DNA of 45,552 nt from Ligilactobacillus agilis DSM 20509 (lineage in GTDB: Bacteria; Bacillota; Bacilli; Lactobacillales; Lactobacillaceae). This document shows positions 160 to 9,635 of the stretch, piece by piece. Each line of letters starts with the position of its first letter. Position 1 is the stretch's first letter. The stretch is from contig NZ_AYYP01000011.1 of assembly GCF_001436215.1 (NCBI RefSeq), positions 1 to 45,552 on the forward strand, given 5' to 3'. The notes under the pieces were generated by a model. That model saw only the letters and a program-made list of their open reading frames with translations. It did not search any database and was not told the DNA's origin. Made by a program: the position numbers and the translations under genes.

Positions 160-197
160 CTCCTAGGAAAGTGGTAACTTTCTTAGGAGCTTTTTTA
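160..197 (+). terminator. Rho-independent terminator after the left-edge gene
   Basis: The arm CTCCTAGGAAAG (160-171) pairs with CTTTCTTAGGAG (178-189) across a 6-nt loop, with one wobble pair. A C and six T residues follow at 190-196. It separates the left-edge gene from the dynamin cluster. Between it and position 365 I see only AT-rich DNA that must hold the cluster promoter. TTGACT at 314-319 and TATTAT at 333-338 are suggestive, but the 13-nt spacing is too short. Confidence 0.85.
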
Positions 198-365: not shown

Positions 366-611
366 ATGTACGAATATAATAAGGTTTACCAAGAATTGGC
401 CGAAATCTTAAACGAGCGAGATGTCGAGAAAATTTACAAAAATTTTCGGGGGATGCAAGTCAATTTTCCGATGCGACTTTATTCGCGAGAATCAGTCAAA
501 AAAGAGTTAGCTACTCATAAAGGCGAGATTGATATTAAGGATACGGCCATGAAGACTGGTTACAGTGTCTATACTATTCGCCGAATGATTAATGAGATTA
601 AAGGTGAATAA
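366..611 (+). CDS. Small Mor-like helix-turn-helix protein, probable regulator of the dynamin cluster
   Basis: This 81-aa protein resembles the short Firmicute members of the Mor transcription activator family (phage Mu Mor/C). The N-terminal half is helical with a YKNFRG segment followed by NFPMRLYSRE near residues 24-42. That matches the family pattern of 'NF(K/R)G...FP.(K/R)LYS(R/K)E'. The C-terminal half (about 45-80) has the helix-turn-helix shape, with the turn around TGYSV and a recognition helix YTIRRMI. The start is an ATG preceded by AGAGGTGG at 5-nt spacing. It is the first gene of the cluster and ends 50 nt before the first GTPase gene, so local control of the cluster is a reasonable inference. 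The family match is from memory of its pattern; DNA binding is not shown. Confidence 0.65.
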   Translation: MYEYNKVYQELAEILNERDVEKIYKNFRGMQVNFPMRLYSRESVKKELATHKGEIDIKDTAMKTGYSVYTIRRMINEIKGE

Positions 612-661
612 GCAGACAGAGAATATTTTAAACTAGGTTATACAAAAAGGAGTTGGAAGAA

Positions 662-2338
662 ATGGTACTAACAAAAACAGGATTAATTAAGGATCTTAAT
701 AAAGCAAGCGATATTTTAGTAAAACATGAATTGGGCGACAGTAAGGTGGCGCTAGATGTAGGCCAAGAAGTTAAAGCAGTTGAGAATTTTGAAGCCAAAG
801 TGTTGATGGTAGGAACATTCAGTGCCGGTAAATCTGCTTTATTAAATACATTCATGGATGGGGTCAGCGGTGAAGAAATTTTAAAAGAAAATATTAGCAT
901 GGAAACTGCGATTGCAACGGAACTTCGCTATAGCGAACAAGCATATGCTATCAAGGTAAAGCAAGATGGTAGTCGTGAAAAATGTTCGATTGAAGAAGCT
1001 AAGAGTGCAGATCCAACTGGTTATTTGAAATATGAATTTTATTTGCCAATCGAAAACTTAAAAAAGTTGAAGAACATTGTTATCGTTGATATGCCCGGCC
1101 ATAGTTCTGGTGTTAAGGAACACAATAAGGCTATTGCCCAATACATAAATAGTGCGGCGGGTTATGTATACGTAATTTCCTCAGATAATGGAACCTTTGA
1201 TATTCAATCACAAAATTTCCTAAGAGAAATTCAGCACTATAGTGGTGAGATTAAGTATGTGCTAACTAAGTGTGATAAACATGCTAAAGAAGATCTTAAC
1301 GATATTGCAGAAGAAATTAAAGATAACATTGAGGAAATCGTAGAACATGATGTGACCCTCACTAAGACTTCAAGTCGCTATTCAGATGCACAAGCTACGA
1401 TGTACTCTTTATTTAGCAGTTTTGACCCAACAGACCTTTTGGCGGCTAAAGAGGGTTATAAGAGTTATGGCTTACTAGAAAGTACCAAGGGAATGCTGAC
1501 TGAACAAAAGCAAGCCTTGGTTTTAGATACAAGTGAGATTGATAAAAAAATTGCAGAAAATGAAGCTAAAAAGGCTAGCTTAGCACAAAGATTGGAAGAA
1601 AAACGGGAAGAATACCTGGCTAAGTTGAAAACACAGGGGACAGAGAAAGTCGTAAGTAAAGTGGAAGATAAGTTGCGGCAAAATGTTAGTGCCTTGGTTA
1701 GAGCGGCCAAAGGTGGTAGTAATACGTTTGGTAACACAGTAAGTTCTTTAATTCGGCCAGAACTATCTCAAGCAACTAGCGACTTTATGACTGCAACTTA
1801 TGGAGAATTATTAGAAGATGTTACCAGTGGCATTTTTGGTGATAGCAACTATGTGGCAGATCGAGCCGGCACGTTATTTGGTGGGCTAAAAGACTTTGGT
1901 CAGAAGTATGCAGCTAAAGAAAATTCACGAATTGCAACTAGTATTTTGGCTGGATTAGCGATTGTAACGGATTTTGTAGCACCAATTGTGGAATTGATAA
2001 TACTGTTTATTCCAGAGATAGTTGGTTTCCTAACCAAAAACATCCAGGAAAGAAAATTGAGGGAACAGATTGAAAATGAAATAATTCCCCAAATCGTTGA
2101 GGACTTAAGACAAAAATTACCTGAGTACATGGAACAAGTGGGAAGCGATACTCTAAAAAATATTGAGGACAGCATTAACTTGCAAATTGATTCTGCTAAC
2201 GAAGCTATTCAAAAGCTCAGGGATGATAAGAAAGAACAGGAAGTAAATCTCGATGAAAAGAAACAAGCACTTGATCAAAGCTTAAACGAGATTGCTGACA
2301 TGATGTCTGAAATGGAAAAGGATTTAGATAAGGAGTAG
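662..2338 (+). CDS. Dynamin-like GTPase 1, with a hydrophobic membrane-binding segment
   Basis: This is a 558-aa dynamin-superfamily GTPase. Visible GTPase motifs are G1 GTFSAGKS (51-58), G3 DMPG (143-146) and G4 TKCD (202-205). A long coiled coil follows (about 285-340). A strongly hydrophobic stretch at about 424-456 (ILAGLAIV...VELIILFIPEIVGFL) fits the membrane-inserting paddle or transmembrane hairpin of bacterial dynamin-like proteins. A second coiled coil closes the protein (about 480-555). I chose the ATG at 662 because AAGGAG lies 9 nt upstream; a TTG at 653 would abut that site. The stop is only 5 nt before the next GTPase gene. Bacterial dynamins bind and remodel membranes by nucleotide-dependent oligomerisation; the specific role here is unknown. 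Confidence 0.85.
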   Translation: MVLTKTGLIKDLNKASDILVKHELGDSKVALDVGQEVKAVENFEAKVLMVGTFSAGKSALLNTFMDGVSGEEILKENISMETAIATELRYSEQAYAIKVKQDGSREKCSIEEAKSADPTGYLKYEFYLPIENLKKLKNIVIVDMPGHSSGVKEHNKAIAQYINSAAGYVYVISSDNGTFDIQSQNFLREIQHYSGEIKYVLTKCDKHAKEDLNDIAEEIKDNIEEIVEHDVTLTKTSSRYSDAQATMYSLFSSFDPTDLLAAKEGYKSYGLLESTKGMLTEQKQALVLDTSEIDKKIAENEAKKASLAQRLEEKREEYLAKLKTQGTEKVVSKVEDKLRQNVSALVRAAKGGSNTFGNTVSSLIRPELSQATSDFMTATYGELLEDVTSGIFGDSNYVADRAGTLFGGLKDFGQKYAAKENSRIATSILAGLAIVTDFVAPIVELIILFIPEIVGFLTKNIQERKLREQIENEIIPQIVEDLRQKLPEYMEQVGSDTLKNIEDSINLQIDSANEAIQKLRDDKKEQEVNLDEKKQALDQSLNEIADMMSEMEKDLDKE

Positions 2339-2343
2339 GTACA

Positions 2344-4515
2344 ATGAGTTCAGTAACAATTAAAGATTTAGATGCACTTGCTAGTAAGACCCTAAAGATA
2401 GTTGTGGAAGGAAAAGACTTGGTAGGGGAAGATGCTATCAACAACTATCAGAAGGCTTATGATGATTTTAAAAAGAATGCTAAAGCGGTCATGGAACCAG
2501 ACCGTACAATGCGTTTAGGGATTGTTGGGCAGGTTAAAGCTGGGAAATCTTCATTTTTGAATGCACTCCTTTTTAACGGACGTGATATTTTACCCAAGGC
2601 TGCTACGCCAATGACAGCCAACCTAACCAAAATCTGCTATGCTGAAGAACCATATGCTAAGGTCCACTACTATAGTGAAGAAGCTTGGCGAGGAATCAAG
2701 GATCTTTCGCAAAAATATGATAAAGCGTATCAAGAGGAATACGAGAAATTAAAAAGCAGCATTAAAAATGAACGAAAGTTACACAGAGAAATTGTTCAAA
2801 ATATTGATGAAGATTGGAAAGCTTGTAAGGAATTAACAGAAAAAGCCAAGGCGCTAAGCCCAGCTGAACTAAGTGAGAAGCTTAGGGAAGGCGAAAAGAC
2901 AATAAGACTAGAGGAATTAGCAGAGTATGTTGGTTCGCAAGGAAGATTAGCCCCAATCGTTGAGTGGACAGAAATGGGAATTGACACACAAAGCTTAAAG
3001 GACGTAGAAATCTATGATACTCCGGGGTTAGGAGATCCGGTTCGTTCACGGGGAAAGAAGACAGAGGATTTTCTTAAAAAATGTGATGCGGTTATCGTTT
3101 TAAGCATGGCTTCACAATTTATGGGGGAAGCGGATGTTAACCTAATTTTAGACAAGTTACCTAATGAAGGAATTAGACGGATGTCCTTTGTTGCTAGCAA
3201 GTTTGACTCCGCAATGTTAGATGATAGCAGCCGTGGCAAAGCAAACCTAGAAGAGATTTTTAATAAGACTTACTATGTAATTAAGGGTAGTTTGGAAAAG
3301 AGTTTAGGTAAGCAAGTAGCCCAAGGTAATAAGCGTAAGGAAGCTATCTTTGATAAGGTTAAGGAAGAAGCCAGTGACCATGATTATCTATATACTATCT
3401 CATCGCTTCTATATGGGGTGGCCCAAAAGAAAAAAAAGAATCTACCCTTATCCGACGAAGAAAAAATAATTATTGAACGAATGCAAGAACGCTTTAACGG
3501 AATGTCAACGGAACCAGACTTTTTAGAGGATTTGGCGGGTATTGATGATTTTAAAAAAGAGTTTGAGCTAATTCGGGCTGATAAAGAAAAAATTATTCAA
3601 GAGCGGCAAGCAGACTACCTTAACAAGCAGTCTCTAAAACTTTTAAAAGAACTGGATAATATTTATACCAAGGCCACTAGGCGCTTAGCTGGACTTAAGA
3701 ATAAGGATATCGCTGCTATTAAAGAACAATTAGAGCTAGTTCATGAGTTAATTACTAAGCAGCGAAATAAAATCAAGGTAATCTTTGAGGAAGAAGAATT
3801 TGATATTAGGTCTAGGTATACTGCTTTAGCGGACGAAATCAAGCGCATGAAAAAGAACTATCAACTGTTCCCAGTAAAAAATGTTCAAACAGGTAGTTAT
3901 ACTAGTGGTCATCTTTGGTGGAAAAAGGAGCATATCACCAATGAATACGTTGCAGAAATTGTAGATGTAGAGAACAATATCACCAACTACGTCGATGATC
4001 TTACTAAGAAGATTGGTGACAATCAGCGCCACAGTTTAGATTCTAATTCTTTAGGAAATAAAATTAAATCAATTGTTATTGAAGGAATCGAAAACACTAG
4101 GAAATTAGATGAAGACGAAATTATAGATGTAGTTAACAGCAGGCTAAGAAAACTAGACTTACCTAAGTATAAGGAACTAGATTCAGTTGACTATACAAAT
4201 AAGTTAACGACTAGCTATCCTTCTAGCCGAGTTTACGGTAAAGAAATTTCCGGCTTGAAACAAACGTTAGGACGGATTTTAACCGAAATTGGCAGTGATG
4301 CGGCCAAGACACTGGAAAATAAGGATCAGGAAATAACTAGTTACTTAGACGCTGAATCGGTCTCCTTTGCGGATGAGTTAGAAAAAGCCCTTTCTAAGGA
4401 TTTGCAAGAACAAGAAGTGTTATTACAAAACGCTGAGCAAAGCAAGAGTAGCCTGGAAGGGTATACTACACTTTTGAAGGCTGAAAAAGAAAAACTAGTC
4501 GATTTAACTGACTAA
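2344..4515 (+). CDS. Dynamin-like GTPase 2, large, with an extended insert in the G domain
   Basis: This 723-aa GTPase has G1 GQVKAGKS (62-69), a switch-I threonine region at ATPMTANLT (about 87-95) and G3 DTPGLGDP (225-232). The G4 position is SKFD (285-288), where T or N is usual at the first residue. About 120 residues, rich in charged helix, lie between switch I and G3; this is longer than in DLP1 or DLP3. The C-terminal half is mostly helical and coiled coil. A short beta-hairpin-like insert has paired tryptophans, W525-W526. I see no clear transmembrane segment, so membrane contact could be through DLP1 as partner. It sits 5 nt after DLP1 and 15 nt before DLP3. Heteromeric assembly, as in Campylobacter jejuni DLP1/DLP2 and E. 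coli LeoABC, is plausible but inferred. Confidence 0.83.
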   Translation: MSSVTIKDLDALASKTLKIVVEGKDLVGEDAINNYQKAYDDFKKNAKAVMEPDRTMRLGIVGQVKAGKSSFLNALLFNGRDILPKAATPMTANLTKICYAEEPYAKVHYYSEEAWRGIKDLSQKYDKAYQEEYEKLKSSIKNERKLHREIVQNIDEDWKACKELTEKAKALSPAELSEKLREGEKTIRLEELAEYVGSQGRLAPIVEWTEMGIDTQSLKDVEIYDTPGLGDPVRSRGKKTEDFLKKCDAVIVLSMASQFMGEADVNLILDKLPNEGIRRMSFVASKFDSAMLDDSSRGKANLEEIFNKTYYVIKGSLEKSLGKQVAQGNKRKEAIFDKVKEEASDHDYLYTISSLLYGVAQKKKKNLPLSDEEKIIIERMQERFNGMSTEPDFLEDLAGIDDFKKEFELIRADKEKIIQERQADYLNKQSLKLLKELDNIYTKATRRLAGLKNKDIAAIKEQLELVHELITKQRNKIKVIFEEEEFDIRSRYTALADEIKRMKKNYQLFPVKNVQTGSYTSGHLWWKKEHITNEYVAEIVDVENNITNYVDDLTKKIGDNQRHSLDSNSLGNKIKSIVIEGIENTRKLDEDEIIDVVNSRLRKLDLPKYKELDSVDYTNKLTTSYPSSRVYGKEISGLKQTLGRILTEIGSDAAKTLENKDQEITSYLDAESVSFADELEKALSKDLQEQEVLLQNAEQSKSSLEGYTTLLKAEKEKLVDLTD

Positions 4516-4530
4516 AGATGAGGTAATTGC

Positions 4531-5799
4531 ATGGGGATTAGAGATAGGATTAGGAATAAAGTTAATAATAAGGAAATAGTAGCTAGTAAAAATAGCTACC
4601 TTGAGGATCCTAATAAGGCTTTAGCTTTAATTACACAAATTTTAGCCAAAAGATATGCAGAAAATGAACGAGCTACAGCTTTAAATGAGCTGGAAGAATT
4701 AATTAAGGTCGACTTACCGACGATTCTTGAAAACTTACAGCTTCCGGATGTAATTGAGCGCTTGCAGAGACTAGAAAAATTAGGGTTTAGATTAGGAAAA
4801 AATGAACGGACAGAGCTTTTTCAAGGCAGAAAGGTAGTTGGCTTGGGGGGATTGTTTAGCGCAGGAAAATCTTCTTTCATTAACGGGCTTATTAATGGTG
4901 GCTCTAAGTTAATGTTACCCGAAAATCAAAGTCCGACCACGTCTATCTTAACCTACGTTATGGCTGGTGCAAAAGGCAAGCAAAATGTGGTAGTGTCTAA
5001 TCAAAAGTTAGAAATAGATGCAGATGCATTGCAGGCTCTATCACATGAATTTGAGGAACAATATCATCTTTCCTTGAGTCGGTTTATTGATTGTATTACG
5101 ATTGAAACTACGAATTTTCCTGCTGAAATCTCAGATGAAATTGTTTTGTTAGATACGCCTGGTTTTAATAAGAGTACAAACAAGCATGATAAAACGGAAG
5201 TTTCTGATAGAGAGATAGCATTCAAGCAACTTGTGAAAGCTGATTATCTGATCTGGTTAGTAAATGCAGAAGCCGGTGCAATCAAAGAGGAAGAAGTTAA
5301 GTTTTTAGCAGAATTTGACACTGTTAAGCAGCTATTAGTTGTTTTCACCCGGGCGGATAAACGTGATAAGAAAAATATCCAAGAAATAATTAGAACAGCT
5401 GAGCAAACCTTAGCGGACCATGATATTAATTTCTACGCAGTGACAGCCTATGATTCGCGAGCGGGCAAGGAATTTGATGATAATGGCTACATTAATAACT
5501 TCTTTAAATCAATTGCTACTGAGCCTAATTCAGATCAAGAACAGGATTCGAAAGAGTTAAGCGCGGACTTGTTAGAATTACAGGCTGAGTTTGCTAATGA
5601 AATGAAGCAACTACGTGCGAATTTAAAAGAGTTAACCAAGCAAATTGAGACAGAAAAAAACATCTTAGCTACAAAATCGTTAGCTAGTTTGTCTCTAGAT
5701 ATAGTCTTGCAAGTCGATAGGTTAGGTAGAAACGAAGCGCAATTTATTAATCTTCAAGAAAAAATAAAGTGGAGAGTAAAAAAACTAGAACAAGGATAG
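4531..5799 (+). CDS. Dynamin-like GTPase 3, short form
   Basis: This 422-aa GTPase begins with about 95 helical residues. G1 GLFSAGKS (107-114), a switch-I SPTTSI (134-139), G3 DTPG (208-211) and G4 TRAD (273-276) follow. TRAD replaces the usual (N/T)KxD, with R at the lysine position. The end is a coiled coil of about 80 residues (340-422). There is no hydrophobic paddle, so compared with full dynamins it is a G domain with a short stalk. The ATG at 4531 is preceded by GATGAGGTAATTGC, giving an acceptable ribosome binding site. The next gene starts 6 nt after its stop. Its family differs from DLP1 and DLP2 in the flanking regions, so the three do not look like simple recent tandem duplicates. 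Confidence 0.82.
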   Translation: MGIRDRIRNKVNNKEIVASKNSYLEDPNKALALITQILAKRYAENERATALNELEELIKVDLPTILENLQLPDVIERLQRLEKLGFRLGKNERTELFQGRKVVGLGGLFSAGKSSFINGLINGGSKLMLPENQSPTTSILTYVMAGAKGKQNVVVSNQKLEIDADALQALSHEFEEQYHLSLSRFIDCITIETTNFPAEISDEIVLLDTPGFNKSTNKHDKTEVSDREIAFKQLVKADYLIWLVNAEAGAIKEEEVKFLAEFDTVKQLLVVFTRADKRDKKNIQEIIRTAEQTLADHDINFYAVTAYDSRAGKEFDDNGYINNFFKSIATEPNSDQEQDSKELSADLLELQAEFANEMKQLRANLKELTKQIETEKNILATKSLASLSLDIVLQVDRLGRNEAQFINLQEKIKWRVKKLEQG

Positions 5800-5805
5800 G
5801 TAAGA

Positions 5806-8571
5806 ATGATGGATAATAGTAAGCAGCTAGAGTTGCTATCTAAATTGCTTAACACTGAGGATAATCGCAGTGATAATGAATTACAGTTGGAATTAAAAAA
5901 ATATATAGAAGAAAACTTACTACCATTATTGAGAAAGTCTTCTCTGCCAGGAATTAGTAAGTATAAACAAATTTTAGACCAACTTTTTGCGGATTTAGAG
6001 TTTGCTAATGACTACCCAGAGCTAATGAGGCATAAAAATATTGGGATTATTAGTTGGACAGAAAAAAAAGCTAGTGCTAGCTATTTACGAGGGGCGTTTG
6101 ACTCAGCAGTACTGGATGCTTTATTAAAGCCAAATGCGGTTCCAGTCGTCCTTTCTGCTACAACTAACGATGAACCAAGAATAGCAGCTATTAATACTGG
6201 TGTTTCAAACGAGTTAACACTTGACGAATATAATGATTCAGAAAAGCTTGAGCATAGTGAGATTGACGTCACTAACTTTATCGACACTTATAAGATAAAA
6301 GCCCAAGACGTTAAAGCAACAGTTACATTCTTTCCGGCAGCTACTAGACTAGACAAAGCGGTAGTTAAAAAACTACTGGCGGTTCAAGATGAGATTATTA
6401 TTTTAGTTGATGATACTAGCACTGGTCAGTCTAATTGTTTTAAGGAACGTTTAGCTTTGATTAAGAGACTAGCGGAACAGGCTCAAGTTTATGTCCTGGC
6501 AAATAATGATGAGAATAGTCGTCCTTGGGAAATAGGAAATGTAAAGTTTGTTTCGCCAAAAGATCACCCGGAGTTTTTAACCACTACTTTTAAGCAAAAG
6601 CAAGCCTGTCAAACGGCTTTTGTGCAACCAACAATCGACTACCTTTTCTCCGATTTATTTACTAATTATGATGTAAGTATTCAAAAAGATAATGAACGCT
6701 TACATGGGATTGGTTTGGATTTAATACGTGTTGGAGATAGCTCGGTGTTAAAGGCAAAAAGAAAAGAGCTCAGTGATCGAGTTGCTAAGTTGGAAAATGA
6801 ACAAACTGATTTTGAAGAATGCTATCAACAACTGCGGAAACTCGCCGAAAAAGTTGATGATAGCAACCGCTTTGCTGAATTATTTAATAGCTATGGACTA
6901 AATGTTGATGAACAAAGGCTGTTGTTGCGTCGTTTTAGCTTAGATAGACAGGTTGAGTTATCAAAGAAAGAAATTGAAAAGTTACAGCAAAAATTTAAAG
7001 AAGCAGAAGATACTAACGCAGATTTTAAAAATTGCTATCAAGCGATGTTAACTTTAGCTAAGGAGGTTAACGACAGCAAGTTATCTTCAACAAAAAGACG
7101 CCAGGCAATTTATACCAACTTGTGGAACAGCTTAAAAAAAGATAATACTAATAATGAAACCATAGATTTAATAGACCAATTAAAAGCTGATAATGATCCT
7201 AATGCCTTAGTTTTTGAATTGATGGTAGATAAAATTAACGACTGGGTTTTATCCCCTGCGAAATTAAACAAGCTACTTGAGTATCCTGATACAGAATTAG
7301 TTAGAAAGGCTAAAATTATTCTAGCTTCTGAACTCTCTTTAACAAAGGCCCAATGTAATGAGCTAGCAGCTAAGCTTGATAAAGTAGAAACAGGTGCAGA
7401 GTACTACTATTTGAGTTATCAATTTGAGGGCGAAGTAGCGATTGACTATTTAAAAGAGGCCTTTAAATTAGGTGAGAAAAGAGCCACTGACGAGTTACTT
7501 AAACTAGCACGAAATTCAGCCGACGAAACTTTACTTAGGTACTTGTCTCAAAGACAAGTACCTGCCGCTAGTTATCAACTAGGCAAAGCTAAAGAAAGTA
7601 GTGATCCGGGTAAAGCAGAAAATTACTATCGCATTGCCGCCTCATGGGGAGATACACTGGCAATTTATAAGTTGCTGGAGATGGAGTTTGATAAAAATTG
7701 GCATGAGGATGAAGTTGAAACAGAAGATGTTGTTGTTGGATACTCATGGTGGGAGAGAACTGTTACCAAAAAAATAATTAATGAAAAAATTATTAATGTA
7801 GATGAAGAAACAGCAAATAACATCATTAACTTATGTGATTACCTGTTAAATCTAGATACTAAGCGCGGATTATCTATAAGTCGCATCTCCTATATCATGG
7901 GTTGTGCTTACTTGTCGAAAAACAATCAACGGCAGGCCCTTAAATGCTTTGAAAAAAGTCGGCAAGCCGCTGCTTATTACTACCGTGGTAAGATTTACAT
8001 GAATAATGAAGGTGATGTTAGTCAAGACTTGAATCTGGCTAAAAAATATTTTACTCAAGCCAAGAATAAGGGTTATAGTTTGGCTGAAGTTTGGCTAGAA
8101 CAAGTGGACGACCTGATTCGTCAAGAAGATGAAAAAAGAGCCAAACTAGAAGAAGCAATGGAATCTGACACTGGGTATGCAGCTGAACACCATACTGTAG
8201 ATAAGGGCTGTTTTATCACCACTGCAACCTGCATGAGTTTAAATAAGGGGGATGACTGTGAGGAATTGATGGCGATGAGACGCTATCGGGATATGTCAAC
8301 TGTCAAGAACCCGCTTATTGCTGAATTAGTTAGGGAATACTATCGGATTGCACCAGTAATTGTTAAGCGTATCGATGCTCGGCCAGAAAAAGCGCAAATT
8401 TACCAACAACTATGGAATAAGTATATTTCTAAGACCTATGCTTGCATCAAACGTGAAGACTATGACAATGCGACTAAGCTATATGTCAGCATGGTAGCTG
8501 ATCTTAGTGAGGAATACGGAGTTAGATTACGTAAGGAAGCCGTTAAAAATATTAGGTTAATTAAAGGTTAA
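5806..8571 (+). CDS. Pseudo-GTPase / coiled-coil / Sel1-TPR protein with a C-terminal CFI-box domain
   Basis: This 921-aa protein seems to combine several parts. Residues 78-240 follow the strand pattern of a dynamin G domain but lack its catalytic motifs. IGIISWTEKKAS (79-90) stands where a P-loop would be, PVVLSATT (113-120) at switch I, TFFPAAT where DTPG is expected, then IIILVDD and VYVLANND in place of G4. Coiled coil covers about 310-410. Helical repeats of Sel1/TPR type are visible around 590-625 and 690-765, with patterns such as AASYQLGKA, ALKCFEKS and AKKYFTQA. An insert contains W648-W649. The end starts with CFITTATC (802-809) and matches what I recall as the CFI-box-CTERM domain. 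It may be the scaffold or sensor for the three GTPases. The function is unknown and the pseudo-GTPase reading is an inference. Confidence 0.75.
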   Translation: MMDNSKQLELLSKLLNTEDNRSDNELQLELKKYIEENLLPLLRKSSLPGISKYKQILDQLFADLEFANDYPELMRHKNIGIISWTEKKASASYLRGAFDSAVLDALLKPNAVPVVLSATTNDEPRIAAINTGVSNELTLDEYNDSEKLEHSEIDVTNFIDTYKIKAQDVKATVTFFPAATRLDKAVVKKLLAVQDEIIILVDDTSTGQSNCFKERLALIKRLAEQAQVYVLANNDENSRPWEIGNVKFVSPKDHPEFLTTTFKQKQACQTAFVQPTIDYLFSDLFTNYDVSIQKDNERLHGIGLDLIRVGDSSVLKAKRKELSDRVAKLENEQTDFEECYQQLRKLAEKVDDSNRFAELFNSYGLNVDEQRLLLRRFSLDRQVELSKKEIEKLQQKFKEAEDTNADFKNCYQAMLTLAKEVNDSKLSSTKRRQAIYTNLWNSLKKDNTNNETIDLIDQLKADNDPNALVFELMVDKINDWVLSPAKLNKLLEYPDTELVRKAKIILASELSLTKAQCNELAAKLDKVETGAEYYYLSYQFEGEVAIDYLKEAFKLGEKRATDELLKLARNSADETLLRYLSQRQVPAASYQLGKAKESSDPGKAENYYRIAASWGDTLAIYKLLEMEFDKNWHEDEVETEDVVVGYSWWERTVTKKIINEKIINVDEETANNIINLCDYLLNLDTKRGLSISRISYIMGCAYLSKNNQRQALKCFEKSRQAAAYYYRGKIYMNNEGDVSQDLNLAKKYFTQAKNKGYSLAEVWLEQVDDLIRQEDEKRAKLEEAMESDTGYAAEHHTVDKGCFITTATCMSLNKGDDCEELMAMRRYRDMSTVKNPLIAELVREYYRIAPVIVKRIDARPEKAQIYQQLWNKYISKTYACIKREDYDNATKLYVSMVADLSEEYGVRLRKEAVKNIRLIKG

Positions 8572-8600
8572 TCTGCTTTTATTGAAAGGAGGCGAGAGCT

Positions 8601-8753
8601 ATGTCAATTTTTGGAAGCAAATCACCAAAGGATACCCATGGGCCAGTGGTGAAGACGGGGCCAACTGCAGGGCAAAATAGGTCACGCAATAAGGATGGTG
8701 CTTGGCGGGCTAAGCGTAGCGATGCCGGTCAACCACGCAAGAAGAAAGACTAA
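8601..8753 (+). CDS. Small basic protein of unknown function (50 aa)
   Basis: A 50-codon ORF opens with ATG, preceded by a very strong site AAAGGAGGCGAG at optimal spacing. It starts 29 nt after the 921-aa protein and ends 20 nt before a terminator. The product is rich in K, R, G and S, has no hydrophobic segment, and ends in RKKKD. Its middle contains GAWRAKRSDAGQP. I recall similar short basic proteins in other lactobacilli that do not sit beside dynamin genes. It may therefore be a conserved chromosomal gene marking the right boundary of the accessory block rather than part of the system. It may still be read through from the cluster. Confidence 0.72.
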   Translation: MSIFGSKSPKDTHGPVVKTGPTAGQNRSRNKDGAWRAKRSDAGQPRKKKD

Positions 8754-8772: not shown

Positions 8773-8811
8773 AACAGGGTGTCTGCCAGGCGGCAGGCAC
8801 CCTGTTAGTTT
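8773..8811. terminator. Terminator between convergent genes
   Basis: AACAGGGTG-T-CTGCC pairs with GGCAG-G-CACCCTGTT, giving a long GC-rich stem with one mismatch. The TAG then TTTT on the + strand serves the cluster. The minus-strand gene's stop (8805-8807) lies inside the right arm. Confidence 0.8.
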
Positions 8812-9635
8812 TGGTTGAGGCGGTAATTGAGTTGGCGGTAGTAGTTAAGCGAGGTTAAATCTAGGCGCAGGCGGGTGGCTAGTTGCTGGTCGCTTAAATC
8901 TTGGTGGCTGACTAAGAAGTAGCAGACGGCATTTTGGTAAAGTTGGCTGGGCTTAAAGCTAAAAGGAAGCTGGGCTTGGTCTTGCTTCAAATACTTATGT
9001 AAAGCCGGCAAGGTTAGGGTGGGGTTAGCCAAGTTGAGCCGTTGTTTTAAGAAGAGCTCCAAGCTATTCTGGCGGGCCTGTAAGTCGGCCTGGTGTTTTT
9101 TAAATTCGGCTAAAAAGGTTTGTTCAAAGTCCAACCAGCTTTCACGGTCTAGGATCTGGTAAAAGCCGGGTTGAAGCATTTCCTTAACGGTATAAAAGTG
9201 ACTGGTTAACAACAAAACCAAGCGGCCGTAATAAGACAGGCTGTCATCACTTAACAGGAGTGGGAGTTGGTCAACCCAGTTAAGGGGAAGGCTGTCATCT
9301 GTTTGGCGTTTTAGGCCCTTTAAGCCGATGGTGGGTAGGCTGGTAGTTAGTTTATTTTGAAAGAGAAAGTTGAAGTAGGTGGTAAGGTGGGTTAAGACCT
9401 TATTGTAGGTGGTGTTTTTAATGTTACGTTCGACTTGGAGCATATTGAAATAAGCCCGGATATCCGTTTCTTCGAGCTGGTCTAAGTCGGGATTGACTTG
9501 GTATAAGACGTTGAAGTGGCGCAAGTAATTAAAGAGGTCGGCCACGTCGTGGTTGATGTCGTTGATGGTATTGTCTGCTAGGAGACGGTCATGTTTAAGG
9601 TAGTGACTAAAGCGGTCGGCGTAAGGAAAGTCCAT
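8805..9635 (-). CDS. Tyrosine-recombinase-like protein without catalytic residues (XerD-like)
   Basis: This 276-aa protein has the overall layout of a tyrosine recombinase. The N-terminal core-binding-like domain is at about 5-105 (pattern 'FSHYLKHDRLL...TINDINHDV...FNYLRHF', then TTYNKVLTHLTTYFNFLF). A C-terminal half follows. The catalytic set is missing. Where XerC has GMRVSE, the region around SHFYTVKEML has no arginine. Where HELRH is expected, the sequence is KPSQLYQNAV. The GH of the LGH box is lost near LRLDLTSLNYY, although a tyrosine remains. This resembles the catalytically odd XerD-like protein of streptococci. I infer a non-catalytic DNA-binding or structural role. An extended -10 (TGTTATAAT) lies 40 nt upstream, and the ribosome site is TGGAGGAA. 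Confidence 0.6.
   Translation of the reverse strand: MDFPYADRFSHYLKHDRLLADNTINDINHDVADLFNYLRHFNVLYQVNPDLDQLEETDIRAYFNMLQVERNIKNTTYNKVLTHLTTYFNFLFQNKLTTSLPTIGLKGLKRQTDDSLPLNWVDQLPLLLSDDSLSYYGRLVLLLTSHFYTVKEMLQPGFYQILDRESWLDFEQTFLAEFKKHQADLQARQNSLELFLKQRLNLANPTLTLPALHKYLKQDQAQLPFSFKPSQLYQNAVCYFLVSHQDLSDQQLATRLRLDLTSLNYYRQLNYRLNQN

Follow-up and report, generated by a model that had tools for sequence, protein, structure and literature searches.

The closest solved relatives of the proteins described here are the dynamin-like proteins Cj-DLP1 and Cj-DLP2 of Campylobacter jejuni (PDB 5owv/5oxf). In the part of PMC6104087 that was available to us, these two dynamins are presented as a lipid-binding pair that is inactive unless both members are present; Cj-DLP1 carries an N-terminal assembly domain of 119 aa, and no fused pseudo-GTPase is described there. 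LeoABC of E. coli is a multi-gene dynamin-like operon on a genomic island, and according to the accessible sections of PMC4159319 it corresponds to a pair with one member split into LeoB and LeoC and has been linked to vesicle release. In DynA of Bacillus subtilis, two dynamins are fused in one protein (PMC6104087, same part), and excerpts of PMC8844932 report that this protein delays lysis by phage and functions in membrane surveillance against antibiotics and phage. Three dynamin-like proteins encoded in a genomic island of H. pylori were read as helpers of toxin release (PMC8935386, in part). Here, we analyzed a DNA stretch of 45,552 nucleotides from Ligilactobacillus agilis DSM 20509 (NZ_AYYP01000011.1; referred to as the window), which is a complete contig (C41) of a 2.06-Mb genome. 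Between positions 366 and 8753 its forward strand carries six genes, which encode in this order a helix-turn-helix (HTH) protein, three dynamin-like GTPases (D1, D2, D3), a large multi-domain protein (C4) and a 50-aa protein.

All three GTPases scored above the Pfam cut-off for Dynamin_N (E-values in Table 1), and each has its own combination of P-loop and G3 motif (GTFSAGKS/DMPG in D1, GQVKAGKS/DTPG in D2, GLFSAGKS/DTPG in D3). This confirms a preliminary description of the window, which was made from the letters alone and had recognized three adjacent proteins with distinct P-loops followed by DTPG or DMPG. In D1 (residues counted from TTG 653) the P-loop is located at residue 54, the DMPG motif at residue 146 and a hydrophobic peak at residues 435–453. 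When whole open reading frames of at least 380 aa were compared among the relatives, we found the P-loop in 76 of 79 D1, 84 of 84 D2 and 80 of 80 D3 proteins and DxPG in all of them; the three D1 sequences without P-loop are split reading frames. A transmembrane-like segment beyond the GTPase domain (Kyte–Doolittle 19-mer of at least 1.6) was detected in 76/79 D1 proteins but only in 1/84 D2 and 2/80 D3 proteins, and the best 19-mer of the window D3 reached 1.18. By this hydropathy measure, D1 is almost the only one of the three with a membrane-type hydrophobic segment. In locus L031 (1824–5492) and its relatives L028, L032, L034, L039 and L046, D1 forms part of a larger protein of 1207–1317 aa.

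The distribution of the three genes was followed by a D2 search of GTDB genome contigs, in which 181 stretches matched and 96 encoded relatives; the best 80 were retained and the 16 weakest excluded. The search patterns (LPKAATPM and the aromatic-tip motif given below) favor some D2 homologues over others. With profiles built from three-member alignments and a threshold of at least 50 bits, D1, D2 and D3 were found together in 74 of the 80 D2 loci, on one strand in each of the 74. The preliminary description had suggested a co-occurrence check and allowed that the genes might rarely be found together in other genomes, which is not what we observed. In four of the six exceptions (L023, L030, L033, L066) the contig breaks off 1–406 bases from D2 on one side, and in L030 the 3.4 kb on the other side contain neither D1 nor D3. 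The remaining two (L047, L097) carry D2 and D3 and no D1 match in the available sequence; in L047 the gene preceding D3 runs off the contig start. The order D1-D2-D3 prevails (49 loci); it is followed by C4 in four further loci and accompanied by a second D3 frame in four (a split frame in L041). Two D1 frames, some of them split, were seen in four loci, and the orders D1-D3-D2, D3-D1-D2 and D3-D2-D1 occurred eight times, four times and once. The triplet genes often abut or overlap.

A similar picture emerged for plasmids. Among 72,556 records searched with Pseudomonas plasmid proteins as queries (E ≤1e-10), D1, D2 and D3 matched 14, 15 and 15 records, all D1 records falling inside the D2/D3 set and the Moraxella record lacking a D1 match at this threshold. 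These records belong to five groups (Escherichia 10, Pseudomonas 2, and Calditerrivibrio, Photobacterium and Moraxella). Strong D1 matches outside the fetched loci were few in the 25 genomes that we reached through chosen loci (G281, G285), and a second match in G274 fits triplet L063. Pairwise distances of the three proteins were correlated (r 0.904 for D1–D2, 0.885 for D1–D3, 0.931 for D2–D3, with none of 2000 permutations reaching the observed value in any comparison) across the 68 loci that have all three genes after removal of near-identical copies; shared host ancestry contributes to these values and is still included in them. Judged from gene content and sequence distances, the three GTPases, each of a distinct family, are passed on together as a unit.

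C4 is far less regular. A C4 search and a D2-profile search of 251 Lactobacillaceae genomes, taken from a larger collection, yielded the same two positives, the genome of the window and Limosilactobacillus mucosae (G215), which shows the identical order D1-D2-D3-C4-small protein. The four-gene cassette was also found in Citrobacter, Selenomonadaceae, Synergistales and on Escherichia plasmids, where the four genes agree with those of the window in content and order. The ten Escherichia plasmid records seem to be near-clonal, and near-identical cassettes are present in 5 of 5,426 complete E. coli genomes, plasmid-borne each time. Since the proteins of the window and of E. coli share only 23–30% identity, the unit common to them is old and was not copied recently. 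In the D2 tree, which was calculated without L026 (near-identical to L012), five loci with a CFI-box C4 form one clade (support 0.77), and these loci and two with a Hint-like variant of C4 form another (0.935). According to the record titles, the hosts of the latter clade include lactic-acid bacteria, Enterobacteriaceae, Selenomonadaceae, Synergistales and Lachnospiraceae, which we take to belong to different phyla; because the clade spans these groups, the cassette has moved between phyla. What is deeply conserved is the triplet of dynamins, to which the CFI-box scaffold is an optional addition, with several other partners in its place elsewhere. The preliminary description had regarded the dynamins and the CFI-box scaffold as one set, and of this view the triplet stands as conserved core while the scaffold does not.

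To compare the triplet with solved structures, we used diverse profiles of 39–40 sequences each. The best PDB match of D2 was Cj-DLP1 (5owv_A, E 1.7e-27), and D1 (5owv_C, E 1.4e-21) and D3 (E 1.3e-16) both matched Cj-DLP2 best, with the 5owv chains assigned to names from their lengths and the paper. The AlphaFold2 model of D2 (pLDDT 87.2, pTM 0.66) shows long helices at residues 414–453, 456–506 and 634–695, and an aromatic-tipped beta-hairpin sits between two long helices. The motif at its tip, T[SE]G[HM][LF][WF]WK, is common to all three members of alignment A1, and the hairpin matches the position of the lipid-binding tip of other dynamins as given in the available part of PMC6104087. BDLP, SynDLP, Cj-DLP1 and IniA were the top Foldseek matches of D2; BDLP1, SynDLP, IniA and the mitofusins are relatives at the level of the fold (10–14% identity, TM-scores of about 0.2–0.6). 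There are, however, clear differences from the Campylobacter pair, which assembles as a 2:2 tetramer. Window-type loci encode three dynamin families instead of two, and the window has C4 in addition. Moreover, D2 leaves no room for the 119-aa assembly domain, since its P-loop starts at residue 55–90 in 84 of 84 proteins. The nearest relationship of D2 to Cj-DLP1 and of both D1 and D3 to Cj-DLP2 suggests that the DLP2-like member of a pair may have been duplicated to give a trio, and that in the window type a dead copy then made it a quartet.

Like the window set, the LeoABC type, for which the anti-phage system name Eleos is in use, is encoded by a multi-gene operon. Identity of the two is not supported. 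Unlike the split LeoB and LeoC, each of D1, D2 and D3 carries P-loop and DxPG in one frame, and LeoA (4aur) was absent among the PDB sequence matches listed for the three families and ranked 42nd by fold against D2. DynA involves neither a triplet nor a scaffold, and D1 does not qualify as its equivalog because it scored 13.4 bits in the NCBIfam model NF052648 (cut-off 1600; E 0.013 over about 50 residues). When the five larger proteins were scanned with PADLOC and NCBIfam no named system was obtained. The preliminary description could not name a set with a CFI-box scaffold and had allowed for a gene-for-gene match to a named system, which these scans did not reveal. In the open-access literature, to which our survey was mostly confined, we found neither a conserved operon of three dynamins nor a combination of dynamins with CFI-box proteins described, and the accessible part of PMC7016017 contains nothing bearing on a three-dynamin operon.

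The N-terminal part of C4 resembles D3. In a profile–profile alignment (HHalign; 8 C4 and 39 D3 sequences) residues 3–350 of C4 aligned with residues 37–435 of 484 of D3 (probability 99, E 8e-18, 341 columns). The corresponding comparisons with D1 (E 9e-6 over 145 columns) and D2 (E 0.03 over 35 columns) were much weaker, and for this reason we consider the C4 N-terminus akin to D3. Neither GxxxxGK[ST] nor DxPG was detected in any of the 8 C4 sequences examined, including that of the window. By profile comparison, the first 350 residues or so of C4 are a D3 paralogue without GTP motifs, and the pseudo-GTPase postulated by the preliminary description is therewith borne out. Tandem D3 genes were observed in L059, L078 and L083, which form one clade of the D2 tree (support 1.0); unlike C4, both of these copies retain their GTP motifs.

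Behind the pseudo-GTPase, AlphaFold2 predicts for C4 a helical-repeat body following the mixed strand-helix N-domain. The repeats extend from about residue 455 to 785, as indicated by the AlphaFold2 helices and by Foldseek matches to tetratricopeptide repeat (TPR) proteins; TPR superhelices and the G domains of mitofusins were matched at E-values between 1e-4 and 1e-3, and the TM-scores were low. The CFI-box domain at residues 802–874 exceeded the cut-off of NF041770 (47.6 bits vs 40), a model that covers the C4 tail alone and whose name gives no function. Of the Sel1/CFI-box partner suggested earlier, the CFI box is thus well founded, whereas Sel1 is represented by a single match below the Pfam cut-off. 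In two Lachnospiraceae (L025:6456–9335 and L027:13395–16226) the fourth gene retains the N-terminus and the repeats, but the CFI box is swapped for a Hint-like end (best Pfam E 2.4e-5, below cut-off), which points to a tail that can be exchanged or perhaps cleaves itself.

Other relatives carry partners of a different kind (TerB, TPR, zinc-ribbon/Sel1). In a mostly marine clade (L028, L031, L032, L034, L043; support 1.0) TerB-type proteins are encoded between the dynamins, an assignment based on a scan of the L028 protein (E 7e-10) and on inspection by eye for the other four. The neighbor protein of the L039 triplet matches DUF5050 and not TerB, the partner in L096 is a TPR protein, and in L084 (7269–8672) a single protein between D1 and D2 combines a zinc-ribbon, Sel1 repeats and an acyl-carrier domain. 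Of the 62 loci for which the upstream sequence extends over at least 1.5 kb, 15 have a WYL-type gene within the first 1.2 kb, as detected by a profile grown from two seeds for which some matches are weak. In the window, the Mor-like HTH gene takes the place of WYL.

The features of the window are summarized in Table 1. The preliminary description had placed five open reading frames on the forward strand, and their coordinates and the gaps of 5 nt between D1 and D2 (2338/2344), 15 nt between D2 and D3 (4515/4531) and 6 nt between D3 and C4 (5799/5806) were all reproduced. The count of five genes has to be corrected, since a sixth gene (8601–8753) had been overlooked. With the terminator-like site that closes the upstream transcription unit, the region 366–8753 reads as a single operon, as judged from its layout. 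ATG 662 is a more likely start of D1 than TTG 653 because of the AAGGAG at 647–652.

Table 1. Features of the operon and its boundaries in the window
Feature	Position	Strand	Basis
Terminator-like site, end of upstream transcription unit	160..189	+	13-pair stem, T tail; 1 found vs mean 0.3 in shuffles
81-aa Mor-like helix-turn-helix protein, likely regulator	366..611	+	Pfam Mor E 0.011, below cut-off
D1, dynamin-like GTPase with hydrophobic membrane segment	662..2338 (alternative start TTG 653)	+	Dynamin_N E 1e-13
D1 hydrophobic segment, presumed membrane paddle	1955..2011	+	Kyte–Doolittle 19-mer mean 2.44
D2, Cj-DLP1-like dynamin-like GTPase without long N-terminal domain	2344..4515	+	Dynamin_N E 3.7e-22
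D2 beta-hairpin 511–538, aromatic tip GHLWWKK, presumed lipid-binding tip	3874..3957	+	AlphaFold2 secondary structure
D3, short dynamin-like GTPase without transmembrane-like segment	4531..5799	+	Dynamin_N E 7.8e-16
C4, 921 aa, pseudo-GTPase/Sel1-type repeats/CFI-box	5806..8571	+	Pfam, NCBIfam, HHalign, AlphaFold2, Foldseek
C4 residues 3–352, pseudo-D3 without P-loop or DxPG	5812..6861	+	HHalign vs D3
C4 Sel1 repeat, residues 721–757	7966..8076	+	Pfam Sel1 E 6e-4, below cut-off
C4 CFI-box C-terminal domain (CFITTATC)	8209..8427	+	NCBIfam NF041770 E 1.1e-12
Small basic 50-aa protein, last operon gene	8601..8753	+	78% identical match 3' of C4 in G215
Terminator-like site 3' of operon	8773..8806	+	15-pair stem; 1 found vs mean 0.3 in shuffles
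Integrase-SAM-like chromosomal gene, boundary and not part of the cassette	8805..9635	-	Pfam Phage_int_SAM_1 E 1.5e-6

The similarity of the HTH protein to Mor, which the preliminary description had noted, holds but is weak. Over 78 residues the protein is 38% identical to half of a 175-aa protein of the same genus, encoded beside another dynamin-type gene; this homologue contains two copies (E 3e-19 between both) and also stays below the Mor cut-off (E 7e-5). The 50-aa protein has no match in Pfam, and matches to it were found in 3 of the 251 Lactobacillaceae genomes, one of which (G222) lacks the cassette. In this genome, which belongs to the same genus, a different cluster (L160:5578–11143) comprises the fused two-copy Mor-like regulator, a 352-aa Dynamin_N GTPase, two proteins of 559 and 490 aa without Pfam match and a match to the 50-aa protein that contains an internal stop; it is perhaps a second dynamin-type system sharing the accessory genes of the window. 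Elsewhere in the genome of the window, a single dynamin-type frame exceeded the cut-off; its size of 306 aa suits Era.

Several signs of mobility were observed: a lower GC content than in the adjoining 11 kb (33–38% over 1–8 kb vs 39–45% over 8–19 kb, with 35% again at 19–20 kb), absence from the corresponding site of a relative, and the copies on plasmids. In this relative (G265), the integrase-like gene (64% identical) and a gene labelled ribU, presumably a transporter gene, are 127 bp apart, the cassette is absent, and no dynamin gene was found in the 14 kb examined. The cassette thus occupies a variable stretch; the other 11 relatives do not share this gene arrangement and are uninformative on the site. 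In the genome of the window, the ribU-labelled gene lies on a separate contig (C61), with some 7.4 kb of further genes behind it. No tRNA gene is present in the window, and of 27 loci scanned for tRNA-linked integration two contained a tRNA gene, neither abutting the cassette.

We consider it probable that the operon encodes a hetero-oligomeric dynamin machine, which acts on the membrane upon damage or infection, most likely in anti-phage defense. D1 would be the membrane-inserting member and D2 its Cj-DLP1-like assembly partner, the aromatic hairpin of which may touch lipid, and D3 would act as soluble switch. C4 might replace D3 or pair with it through the dead G domain, and might tie the GTPases to a sensor formed by its repeats and the exchangeable cysteine-bearing tail. 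By analogy with the Campylobacter pair, single subunits should be inactive. A signal, perceived here by C4 and in other variants by the TerB, TPR or zinc-ribbon partners, would cause the set to assemble, hydrolyze GTP and remodel the membrane. The outcome could be membrane sealing with delayed lysis, as reported for DynA of B. subtilis, or membrane breakage that kills the infected cell; we lean slightly toward sealing.

The preliminary description had also suggested membrane surveillance or an anti-phage function, and here the defense-gene neighbors of the relatives provide some support; beyond this, we infer the role from analogy and sequence. The flanks of 19 loci were compared with 19 control stretches from the same genomes (PADLOC, E ≤1e-10, proteins of up to 700 aa; 139 of 159 flank and 139 of 208 control proteins scanned, the twentieth of each omitted for size). 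The 139 flank proteins matched 121 PADLOC models and the 139 control proteins 46. WYL models top the flank list (10–11 members) and are absent from the 25 commonest models listed for the controls. We regard this test as support and not as measured enrichment, because models and not genes were counted, 25 models were listed and the controls were thinned by hand. Individual scans covered 20 neighbors chosen as large or close and not at random. Downstream of C4 in L021, separated from it by one unmatched 460-aa gene, we found BrxP (E 2.6e-241) and BrxC (E 3.5e-169). A ZorC neighbor is present in L018 (E 2.3e-211), type I HsdR and HsdM in L092 and MkoA-like proteins in L060 and L079; helicase-type matches in L087, L095 and L098 may be cross-matches. 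Five of the 20 neighbors had no PADLOC match (2 of 10 at E ≤1e-10, 3 of 10 at E ≤1e-5).

A number of observations weigh against a defense machine of this design. In PADLOC, no model matched D2, D3 or C4 at E ≤0.1, and the matches of D1 and of the HTH protein were weak (E 0.007 and 0.03). The right flank of the window consists of ordinary-looking genes, and the candidate defense genes of this genome sit on C61, where we found (L133:3638–7897) PDC-M40B (E 4.9e-36) and PDC-M09A (E 5.5e-7) candidates, a TerB-like protein below the cut-off and a disrupted gene in two overlapping frames that looked WYL-like by eye. In the flank test the controls also had defense-type matches (DpdF, PsyrT and BrxH on top; AbiEii, PD-T7-5 and PD-T7-1 as well), and many of the models counted cross-match (HsdM also matches mad2). 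A search of 50,697 phage records for D2 was negative, and in two IMG/VR scans the search patterns picked out 43 and 47 stretches, none of which matched D2. Of the 10 Escherichia plasmid records, 5 have D2 broken into pieces, one of them with an IS3-family transposase inside, and the cassette seems to be decaying on these plasmids. As to the proteins, the presumed G4 motif of the window D3 is TRAD and not NKxD, confidence in the C4 model is moderate (pLDDT 70.7, pTM 0.37), and narrow three-member profiles had other best PDB matches (BDLP 2j68 for D1, EngB 8qua for D3).

The alternative that survives best, although we rate it as rather unlikely, is a general machine for envelope repair or stress, in which the dynamins patch damage caused by antibiotics, antimicrobial peptides or osmotic shock and are not directed against phage. 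DynA, which according to the excerpts of PMC8844932 acts against antibiotics as well as phage, would fit such a role, but the patchy spread of the cassette (2/251 Lactobacillaceae and 5/5,426 E. coli genomes) suits defense better than housekeeping, and so do the BREX, Zorya, restriction and Mokosh-like neighbors at some loci. An aid in upkeep or transfer of plasmids or islands, for instance by excluding or assisting conjugation or by stabilizing the element, appears improbable. The Escherichia copies beside partition and SOS-type genes (parM/parA-type, umuDC) and the Photobacterium copy among tra genes fit this role and count against defense; on the other hand, no GTDB locus record title listed names a plasmid, though drafts cannot settle the point, and no tra or par family is among the 25 listed of 165 flank families. 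It is very improbable that the operon is a LeoABC-like virulence or vesicle-secretion system, for which the three dynamin-like proteins of the H. pylori island (PMC8935386, in part) and the vesicle link of LeoABC (PMC4159319, accessible sections) could be quoted: the hosts come from rumen, hot spring, seashore sediment and lactic-acid niches, and LeoA (4aur) was not among the PDB matches listed. Chance clustering of unrelated GTPases without joint function is refuted for practical purposes by the co-inheritance of the triplet in 74/80 loci on one strand, with many abutting or overlapping genes and correlated distances.

Returning to the anti-phage machine, the components of the set come from known dynamin families and are similar to the Campylobacter pair, and there is a fair chance that it may prove to be a distinct class of defense. 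More tentatively, and with less confidence than in the defense role as such, we propose that it could represent an unnamed class of immune machine, in which a ternary GTPase assembly consists of three dynamin paralogues, all of them obligate, and is triggered through an exchangeable partner, one such partner being a dead-D3 adaptor with repeats and a swappable cysteine- or Hint-type tail. Its logic would parallel, in bacteria, that of antiviral dynamins such as the Mx proteins.

In the literature examined, bacterial dynamins are single proteins or pairs, and a conserved trio offers a system in which heterotypic dynamin assembly and its triggers can be studied. Swapping the interchangeable tails of the dead-GTPase scaffold would allow the sensor half to be tested. 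If the defense role is true, membrane remodeling by a multi-dynamin complex would join the known modes by which bacteria stop phages.

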